DNA of 64,000 bases. Origin: Adineta ricciae. Its lineage: Eukaryota > Rotifera > Eurotatoria > Adinetida > Adinetidae. Position numbers and translations under genes: made by a program. The notes beneath the pieces are model-generated. The model saw only the letters and a list, made by a program, of their open reading frames with translations, had not been told where the DNA came from and did no database searches. Shown here one piece after another: positions 55,357 to 61,270 of the stretch; the stretch's first letter is position 1; each line of letters starts with the position of its first letter. The stretch covers positions 186,001-250,000 of the forward strand of contig CAJNOJ010000048.1 of assembly GCA_905250025.1 (NCBI GenBank). The letters are read 5' to 3'.

Positions 55357-57215
55357 ATGTCATCAACTTGGGCACAAAACAATGAAGAACCATTAGTTAA
55401 ATCAATAGTCAAGAATGAAAATACAGATCCAGAAGGTGAACATAGTAATCAATCGAATAGTAGTCATACCACATCGTCCTCATTGGTAGGTGATCGACAA
55501 CAAACGTCTGCAGTCGATCCCGTTTATACCGAGCCAACATCATTGAAGAATATCAATATCGTTTCGTTGGATCATTCTCAATCCGAGCAGTATGTAGCAA
55601 ACAACGGTAAGACTAGATGATCATCATTGATATCTATAAATCATCGTATGACAATGAATAGAATCACCTTCGTTTTCAAATGCATTCATCAGATCCGATC
55701 TTCAGTCTTATACGGATCCAATAGTGTACTATGGAGAAGGTATGATCGATCCATTTCAACAGAATTATGCACATTTACAGCAAGGTATCATAGTTATATA
55801 ATACAATTTCCTTTCTCTATCTCTCACCTTCTCTTACAGTTTTGTATTCACCATCGCTATCAAGTCTTCATCCTGCTTCGCATTTATCCTACGACGAAGT
55901 AGCTCGATCGAGACAACTCTTTTGTGATAATGGTACTCTTCAATCATGGCCATCCAATGAACATCAACATTATCTAGCATATCAACCGACAACCATACCT
56001 AACATTGCTGAACTAGCGCATTTTCCATCACATCAAACCGATCAAGCACACTTTTGGCAAGATGCTGCCACTGGTGGAACGTATATGCCGTGTATTACCG
56101 CTTCATGTATAGATGCATCGAACACACATCAATGTGTTACATGTGGAATAACATCGGTACCACTTTGGCGACATGATGACACAGGACATTACTTTTGTAA
56201 CGCTTGTCGTCTACGATATCGAGCAGATAGTTCAGATCGAGCATTACAACGACATTCGCAACGAACAGTAAGGAAATTTGTTCGCAAGAAATAAAGAATA
56301 ACCTTCGAAAACCAATGTTCTTTCAGGATGATGAAGATCACATCCGTTCAACTGCTATGGATACTTCATATTCACTTCCACTGTCACAATCAACAACAAA
56401 AATGTTATCAACGTTAGCTCTTCAAGACACAGATAGAACATATTCAACAACGAAAAACAATACTTGTGTAAGTTGCTTAAACGAAGAAGCACACGATGTT
56501 TCCTTGTCTTGTGTCTACGTAGAATAACAAATCGATTTCTGAAACGAATACTAAACGAGTAAGTCAAGTTTGATTTAACTATCACCTTTCTATTCGATAT
56601 TTATTTCTAGACTTTAACTAATCCACGACGTTCAGGTCTTCAATGTGCTAATTGTCAAACTCAAACGACAACCTTATGGCGACGAAACTCCGATGGAGAA
56701 CCTGTTTGTAATGCCTGTGGTCTATACTATAAGCTTCATCATGTAAAACTCAAAACTTTTCGCATGACTTATTCTCCTCCTACTACGTTGTTTAGGTTGC
56801 TCGTCCATTGAACATGGTTAAAGAAGGCATACAAACTCGCCGTCGAAAGCAAAAGAATAGCAATACAATAGTTCCGCCAAAATCGAAATATAACAAACCG
56901 GTAAACCAGTTGGCAGCTATGAAAGAAGCCAAAACACTGGAATTAAGTCGTCGTCACGAGATACCAAAATCCATCGACGATTATCAGTATGATGATTTGC
57001 ATTTAGTTCATCATTCATATGCATCTGCATTCGAACAACATCAACGTTATTCTTCGGCGCAACAATTAGACATGACAACAAATGATTTCGACGCTGAGTT
57101 ATACGCAAGAGAAATTGTTACATCGCCACACTCCCCGACAGGCCCAATGACAATGAAGAATAACGAGGAACCGCATTTAGACGCAATGACAAGTGCAAAC
57201 AACAATCAATCGTGA
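55357..57215 (+). CDS. GATA transcription factor with two zinc fingers
   Basis: About 520 residues in about seven exons. The long N-terminus is Ser/Gln/His-rich (transactivation-like). The N-finger reads [20 protein letters not shown] then [10 protein letters not shown]; the usual CGLY is CRLR, and the basic tail after it is unlike family members. About 90 residues later, across two introns, comes a canonical C-finger: [40 protein letters not shown] and the basic tail [13 protein letters not shown]. The KEGIQTR-x-RK-x-KN tail is closest to the GATA4/5/6 class. In most animal GATA factors the fingers are about 30 residues apart, so this spacer is unusually long. It is a nuclear factor binding WGATAR sites through the C-finger. 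A poly-A signal-like GAATAAATAA lies about 80 bp downstream. Confidence 0.9.
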
Positions 57216-58707: not shown

Positions 58708-59067
58708 TTAGCCGAATTTCGGTATACCCGAAAATGCCGATGTAAAAGCGCGTTTGCCGAATTTCGGAATACCGTGAAATAGATTGGACGTTAAACGTTT
58801 GGGTTTAATCGCAGCACGAACGTAGTCTTGACGTTCTTTCGAATAACAATCATCATAAAGTACACACAAGATTTTCCAATAGTCGGCGTTCGTTTCATGA
58901 TTTTTCATCGATGCTTTGATCAGATTCGGCTCATCCACATAAGCTGGTGTTATAATTTGTTCTTGTTCATTTTGGTCAGTATACGAGATAGGTGATGAGT
59001 AACAGTAAAAATTGCAAAGAACAAAAATAAGCATCAATGGAAATGATAAATGATAATGCATGGCCAT
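58708..59067 (-). CDS. amidated neuropeptide precursor (GIPKF-amide type)
   Basis: A single-exon 119-residue preprohormone. It has a signal peptide (MHYHLSFPLMLIFVLCNFYC), a propeptide with one Cys pair (LCVLYDDCYS) and basic cleavage sites (KPKR, then GKR). The cleavage releases two related C-terminal peptides: LTSNLFHGIPKF and AFTSAFSGIPKF, each followed by Gly (amide donor). The first is bounded by KPKR and GKR; the second ends FG at the stop codon. Both share F-x-GIPKF-amide. The signal peptide, dibasic sites, amidation Gly and duplicated terminal motif together make a neuropeptide role very likely, though I cannot name the family. A TTATAAG element lies upstream. An assembly scar duplicates the 5' half (see repeats). 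Confidence 0.78.
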   Translation of the reverse strand: MAMHYHLSFPLMLIFVLCNFYCYSSPISYTDQNEQEQIITPAYVDEPNLIKASMKNHETNADYWKILCVLYDDCYSKERQDYVRAAIKPKRLTSNLFHGIPKFGKRAFTSAFSGIPKFG

Positions 59068-59082
59068 TTGTCGTGGATGTCT
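58893..59082. repeat. 190-bp direct repeat, copy 1 (assembly scar)
   Basis: Identical by eye to 59084-59273, from TTTCATGATTTTTCATCG to TCGTGGATGTCT. The two copies are separated by a single N, which is typical of two contigs sharing an unmerged overlap. Confidence 0.85.
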
Positions 59083-59083
59083 N

Positions 59084-59273
59084 TTTCATGATTTTTCATC
59101 GATGCTTTGATCAGATTCGGCTCATCCACATAAGCTGGTGTTATAATTTGTTCTTGTTCATTTTGGTCAGTATACGAGATAGGTGATGAGTAACAGTAAA
59201 AATTGCAAAGAACAAAAATAAGCATCAATGGAAATGATAAATGATAATGCATGGCCATTTGTCGTGGATGTCT
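59084..59273. repeat. 190-bp direct repeat, copy 2 (assembly scar)
   Basis: Repeats the 5' half of the peptide-precursor gene without its 3' half. It carries the true upstream flank of the gene. The second signal peptide seen here is probably not a separate gene. Confidence 0.85.
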
Positions 59274-60949: not shown

Positions 60950-61270
60950 ATGGTTTCCAGTAAGTCAAATCTTCTTAATTCTTGTCTTTTCACGCATCAG
61001 TACAAGAAACTTCTTTTAGCATACGTCTGCCTTATCATTGCTATGCTCTGTGTATCCTTTAATCAAGTTTTACCGTATCCATCAGCCTTCTATTCGGATG
61101 AGATTCCACCGTCTATTCTTGACGATTTGTATTTAACTCGACGACAAGTGTTCGATCCGTATGGATTTAACTCAATATTAAGTCGATTTGTTGATCACGA
61201 ACCGTACTACAACCTGCAGAAGAAGAGAACTATTGAACTGGTTCAAGATGATATTTACGACGGTATATGA
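60950..61270 (+). CDS. candidate secreted peptide-hormone precursor
   Basis: A single-exon, 106-residue protein. The N-terminus (MVSSKSNLLNSCLFTHQYKK) leads to a hydrophobic signal-like stretch (LLLAYVCLIIAMLCVSFN). An acidic spacer follows, then a dibasic site (TRRQ). The released segment would start QVFDPYGFNSILSRF and run to a KKR site, and the C-terminus is a short acidic tail (TIELVQDDIYDGI). The segment of about 26 residues between RR and KKR could carry an N-terminal pyroglutamate. No Gly amidation donor precedes KKR. The family was not recognised. A TATA box lies at the right distance, and the neighbouring gene is also a peptide precursor. Confidence 0.55.
   Translation: MVSSKSNLLNSCLFTHQYKKLLLAYVCLIIAMLCVSFNQVLPYPSAFYSDEIPPSILDDLYLTRRQVFDPYGFNSILSRFVDHEPYYNLQKKRTIELVQDDIYDGI

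Follow-up and report, generated by a model that had tools for sequence, protein, structure and literature searches.

The PRXamides (ETH, pyrokinin/neuromedin U and the PRXamides of the myomodulin precursor) are short amidated peptides with a Pro-basic-hydrophobic end, and tachykinin-related peptides have an FxGxR-amide C-terminus. As far as the available parts of the sources go, the octopus FMRFamide precursor includes FMKFamide (PMC4208409), a sea-cucumber SALMFamide precursor holds a putative peptide ending in KF (PMC3432112), Lymnaea has the KF-ended ILGGGYKFamide, and KFamides are reported from Clytia in a passage that does not give their sequence. For Rotifera, the accessible sections of two surveys list FCAP-related, FMRFamide/RYamide and CCAP precursors and the bursicon components (PMC6425005, PMC6660194). 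The FCAP-related precursors of Rotaria carry 8-9 copies of 11-residue peptides (PMC6425005, in part), and an APGW/AKH precursor is described from Brachionus (PMC10730642, in part). According to excerpts of a 2021 spiralian survey, a study that included three species of Rotaria yielded only a very small number of proneuropeptides, and an in-depth gnathiferan survey is the next frontier (PMC8557429). Within the accessible parts of the rotifer and gnathiferan literature searched, no in-depth bdelloid neuropeptide survey was found.

The gene described here lies in a window of 64,000 nt, which is the whole stretch of DNA that was analysed, and its features are the following.

58708..59067, minus strand: coding sequence for the 119-aa GIPKF-amide precursor in a single open frame, stop codon at 58708-58710
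58993..59067, minus strand: leader, hydrophobic by hydropathy and probably a signal peptide, spanning roughly residues 1-25 with an approximate cleavage point
58846..58866, minus strand: C-x5-C pair (C68, C74) of the propeptide, with equal spacing in 3/3 copies
58795..58800, minus strand: KR site (KR90-91) 5' of peptide 1
58759..58794, minus strand: predicted peptide 1, LTSNLFHGIPKF-amide; LLSRLFHGYPKF in the copies on contigs C169 and C215
58750..58758, minus strand: amidation Gly and KR site between peptides 1 and 2
58714..58749, minus strand: predicted peptide 2, AFTSAFSGIPKF-amide; AFTSAFDGIPKF and AFTSAFAGIPKF in the remaining copies
58711..58713, minus strand: C-terminal Gly (amide donor), with the stop immediately after

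Translated from the minus strand, which the original prediction had not specified, the precursor reads MAMHYHLSFPLMLIFVLCNFYCYSS-...-C68VLYDDC74-...-KPKR-LTSNLFHGIPKF-GKR-AFTSAFSGIPKF-G-stop. The leader, dibasic sites, amidation glycines and two 12-residue C-terminal peptides listed in the original prediction are all present, the leader as judged by hydropathy (Kyte-Doolittle mean of 2.6 over the best 11-residue stretch of MAMHYHLSFPLMLIFVLCNFYCYSS). An AlphaFold model has a helix over residues 5-23 at low confidence (mean pLDDT 50) and was set aside as too weak. At the DNA level, both peptide units end in a repeat of 28 nt (82%), suggestive of a duplication inside the gene. The amidated peptides have predicted [M+H]+ masses of 1372.77 and 1271.68, and further [M+H]+ values calculated are 1476.85, 1299.67 and 1255.68. 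From its sequence, the locus is best understood as a gene for an amidated neuropeptide (peptide-hormone) precursor from an animal that is probably a bdelloid rotifer, with predicted processing and signalling, a reading to which we give a probability of about 0.88.

The window's own assembly (130 Mb, 1033 contigs), the sole animal genome examined, gave five matches to the precursor protein: the window gene, its partial duplicate, and one each on C169, C215 and C45. The copies at C169:207269-207682 and C215:114038-114451 are 45% and 46% identical to the window protein, respectively, and each is a 138-aa ATG frame without stops. The C45 match was rejected as a further copy (weak, E 0.163, with 4 stops) and left out of the counts. 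Common to all three copies are a hydrophobic leader (hydropathy calculated for two of them), the C-x5-C pair, which had already looked conserved in the window alone, and the order KR-12mer-GKR-12mer-G-stop. The predicted ending F-x-GIPKF-amide holds for the window gene, and across the copies it widens to F-x-G-[I/Y]-P-K-F-amide. Searched as degenerate DNA, FxGxPKFG matches the genome six times, two per copy and all within these three genes, against 0 in the reversed control. The window has 125 ATG ORFs of 60-250 aa, and one of them combines a leader with at least two amidation sites, thresholds that were set after the ORF had been seen; 300 first-order Markov sequences gave 14,470 ORFs of 60 aa or more, none with this combination. 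A pattern search for relatives in a collection of prokaryote genomes matched 88 stretches, and none was confirmed.

The frame is short, has a single exon and lies near an assembly gap, features that would suit a chance ORF or a dead gene. The chance of this is negligible, since three conserved copies already refute it, the motif is confined to them, the peptides are under constraint (see below) and the Markov sequences yielded no comparable ORF. The frame at 58708-59067 is a real, selected gene. Next to the gap lies the following repeat.

59084..59273, minus strand: exact duplicate of 58893-59082, in which the 5' end recurs

This 190-nt duplicate is separated from the original by the only N of the window (59083) and is probably an assembly artefact, namely the unmerged overlap of two contig ends. 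Since the duplicate is exact and lies across the N, the second 5' end (ORF 59034-59258) is probably no second gene, and it was rejected as a tandem copy; for the same reason, the true upstream sequence of the GIPKF-amide gene starts after 59273. The intact gene is unaffected.

Compared with the PRXamides, the GIPKF-amide peptides are likewise short and amidated with a Pro-basic-hydrophobic end, but have K instead of R, F as the last residue and GIP or GYP ahead; where a PRX-amide C-terminus would stand, 6/6 peptides have PKF-amide. The F-x-G core of the tachykinin-related peptides is also found in 6/6 peptides, but four residues (I/Y-P-K-F) follow it in place of xR-amide, so that all six read FxG[I/Y]PKF and none FxGxR-amide. 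A basic residue with an F-amide end is shared with FMRFamide-like peptides and KF-ended variants, whereas the Pro before K, the FxG core, the presence of only two peptide copies and the KF-amide instead of RF-amide in 6/6 peptides differ. In the accessible parts of the sources, PKF is absent from the printed KF-ended peptides of octopus, Lymnaea and sea cucumber. The FCAP-related precursors reported for Rotaria and this one, probably also from a rotifer, are propeptides with several related short peptides, and they are set apart, by description alone, by 8-9 11-mers in the former versus two 12-mers here.

Descent by strong divergence from a known bilaterian family of amidated peptides, i.e. 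PRXamide (ETH / neuromedin U / myomodulin), tachykinin (FxGxR-amide) or FMRFamide-like, with R changed to K and the last residues altered, is an unlikely origin of these peptides. GIPKF-amide does resemble IPRI/VPRL-amide ends, and FxG precedes the end as in FxGxR-amide. Moreover, KF-amide variants occur within known families (PMC4208409, PMC3432112, in the parts available), and FMRFamide and RYamide precursors reported for Rotifera (PMC6425005, in part) mean that there are families to diverge from. However, the exact C-terminal signatures are missing from 6/6 peptides, no Pfam family was matched, and the place of pyrokinin is held by a separate pair of precursors. One of these (C8:1015133-1015714) contains FSPRLGKR and its partner (C6:77552-77902), 48% identical to it, contains YSPRLGKR. 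The FxPRx-G pattern is not enriched in the genome (2 matches versus 10 in the reversed control), and the C8 gene is credible because of its conserved partner. Given this FSPRL/YSPRL-amide pair, the GIPKF-amide gene was rejected as the animal's canonical pyrokinin. The pair also has a second conserved stretch, RRASISRPYF. For RFG-K, 23 genome matches against 18 in the control revealed no clear multi-copy RFamide precursor. Two near-identical short frames with SFHVLRFGKRSESFVK (C31:117014 and C214:44099) were seen as well and are possible exons of an LRF-amide precursor.

With Pfam, none of the three copies was assigned to a family at E up to 1, a search in which the HMMER filters drop most matches above 0.1. 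Among solved structures no relative was found, the single match being a weak one to annexin (E 0.43). In the literature searched, mostly the main texts of open-access papers, no neuropeptide with GIPKF, GYPKF or PKFamide was found, and the papers in which the strings do occur deal with other subjects, judging by their titles and abstracts. The suggestion that the peptides may be undescribed therefore stands within that literature and Pfam. The best reading of the sequences, with one animal genome compared, is an unrecognised precursor family that is perhaps lineage-restricted. What appears new is the peptide family together with a linked second gene, and its working mode would, we infer, be that of ordinary amidated neuropeptides.

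Substitutions were counted according to Nei-Gojobori, with the peptide end defined as the 30 codons from the KR site to the C-terminus. Between the window gene and the C169 copy, pN is 0.128 and pS 0.698 at the peptide end (26/30 residues identical), versus a pN of 0.413 and a saturated pS of 0.752 before the KR site, where 26/85 aligned residues are identical (112 alignment columns, of which 27 gapped ones were dropped and 85 compared). The values for the C215 copy are similar, with pN 0.111 and pS 0.609 at the peptide end (26/30 identical) against pN 0.415 and pS 0.784 before KR (27/85). At the peptide ends of these distant pairs dS is 1.25 and 2.0. Synonymous sites are thus near saturation between the diverged copies, yet the predicted peptides are conserved, and the contrast in pN/pS and identity identifies the cleaved peptides as the constrained part. 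C169 and C215 differ from each other by a dS of 0.197 and a dN of 0.034 over 138 codons, with 1 non-synonymous change in the 30 peptide-end codons versus 10 in the other 108, too few for a contrast on their own. The original prediction had named conservation of only the propeptide with loss of GIPKFG as a pattern that would count against it; the diverged copies display the opposite, with the peptide end best kept and the mature peptides more conserved than the spacer.

Precursor anatomy alone cannot separate neurons from gland cells, so an amidated peptide secreted by a gland or the epidermis (as a pedal, retrocerebral or defensive secretion) might look the same as a neuronal signal. We nevertheless consider this quite improbable: a near-invariant amide motif despite near-saturated synonymous sites would be expected of a receptor ligand, and the peptides are short with few basic residues.

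Returning to a neuropeptide precursor, the families for its processing are found in the genome. Secretogranin_V (7B2) matches lie on three contigs, one stretch having 2 stops, and Cu2_monoox_C matches in 16 places, both with 0/14 control genomes matching. P_proprotein, a marker of convertases in general and not of PC2 specifically, matches in 13 places and in 1/14 control genomes. One of the Cu2_monoox_C matches, on C371, is a PHM frame with 13 PDB matches at E <= 1e-5, all to PAM/PHM (best 1.1e-18). Frames L032 and L035, by eye closer to dopamine-beta-hydroxylase relatives, were rejected as the amidating enzyme and L034 was used. Based on the 7B2, PHM and P_proprotein matches, the parts for cutting and amidating look present. 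Together with the sequence and the conserved copies, these families support a precursor of two amidated peptides, as originally predicted, with the processing steps as follows. The leader would bring the chain into the secretory pathway, where the Cys pair of the propeptide might assist folding or sorting into dense-core vesicles. A convertase would cut after KR and a carboxypeptidase would then remove KR, after which PHM/PAL would convert the exposed Gly into the amide, giving LTSNLFHGIPKF-NH2 and AFTSAFSGIPKF-NH2. Both peptides would act on other cells, most likely via a rhodopsin-type GPCR reading the shared amidated FxG[I/Y]PKF end. Expression in neurons, cleavage and amidation, the receptor and the role of the peptides are all inferred, as is the bdelloid origin.

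The surroundings of the gene are shared by all three loci, where it is flanked by a GATA-factor gene and, on its opposite side, by a second precursor-like gene, with the relative orientations unchanged. In the window these neighbours are:

55842..57215, plus strand: GATA-factor gene, with a GATA finger found by Pfam in ORF 55842-56294 and a second seen by eye at about 56629-56732
60950..61270, plus strand: second peptide-precursor-like gene, divergently transcribed, with an ATG start and the core DPYGFNSILSR after RR

At 93.4% over an alignment of about 10 kb, C169 and C215 form a homologous pair, with the window contig as a distant third copy. Over 10 kb, blastn (E <= 1e-3) between the window contig and C169 recovers only 73 nt of the peptide end (79%) and 106 nt of a GATA zinc finger (76%); against C215 the same two pieces are found at the same threshold (73 nt at 84% and 107 nt at 76%). 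The correspondence of the GATA genes between the loci is based on the zinc fingers, and BLASTP between ORF 56808-57215 and its counterpart gave a non-significant E of 0.071.

The second gene has counterparts at C169:202537-202728 and C215:118986-119207. It has a hydrophobic start and lacks an amidation Gly, and its 11-residue core after RR is invariant in 3/3 copies, with an overall identity of only 34-36%. The listed frames on C169 and C215 begin at TTG, and a different exon may therefore hold the true start in these two copies. About 1.9 kb separate it from the GIPKF-amide gene in the window, versus about 4.5 kb on C169 and C215. As a string, DPYGFNSILSR had one unrelated hit in the literature covered and does not appear there as a peptide. 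An undescribed two-gene cluster of GIPKF-amide and non-amidated DPYGFNSILSR precursors, kept since an ancient genome duplication and serving a bdelloid- or gnathiferan-specific signalling with its own receptors, is a tentative proposal to which we give slightly less than even odds.

As described in the available part of PMC5916493, a bdelloid gene can have four copies at most, arranged as two pairs, with homologs close and ohnologs far. For Adineta ricciae (GC 35.6%, span 174.5 Mb) the same source gives a mean Ks of 0.14 between homologs and of 1.27 between ohnologs, and for A. vaga (GC 30.8%) 0.05 and 0.61. The dS of the close and distant pairs, taken from one gene, and the window GC of 36.0% fit the A. 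ricciae figures best, but the 130 Mb of this assembly differ from that span; the animal is perhaps A. ricciae. The repeat TGTGGG, the bdelloid telomere repeat, shows no excess in the genome (38 versus 44 in the reversed control).

The locus provides a concrete candidate peptide family, in addition to a neighbouring second one and the pyrokinin-like pair elsewhere. Since its peptides and their predicted masses are defined and can be synthesised or looked for, peptide-receptor pairing can be tested directly in animals whose nervous systems are tiny. The glutamate-receptor ligand-binding domain PF10613 has 67 matches in the genome, many of them within 700-1000-aa frames, which may reflect a large receptor expansion. 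For one glutamate-receptor frame (L026), taken as a test for Adineta, the best 60 of 286 matches are AMPA-type glutamate receptors.
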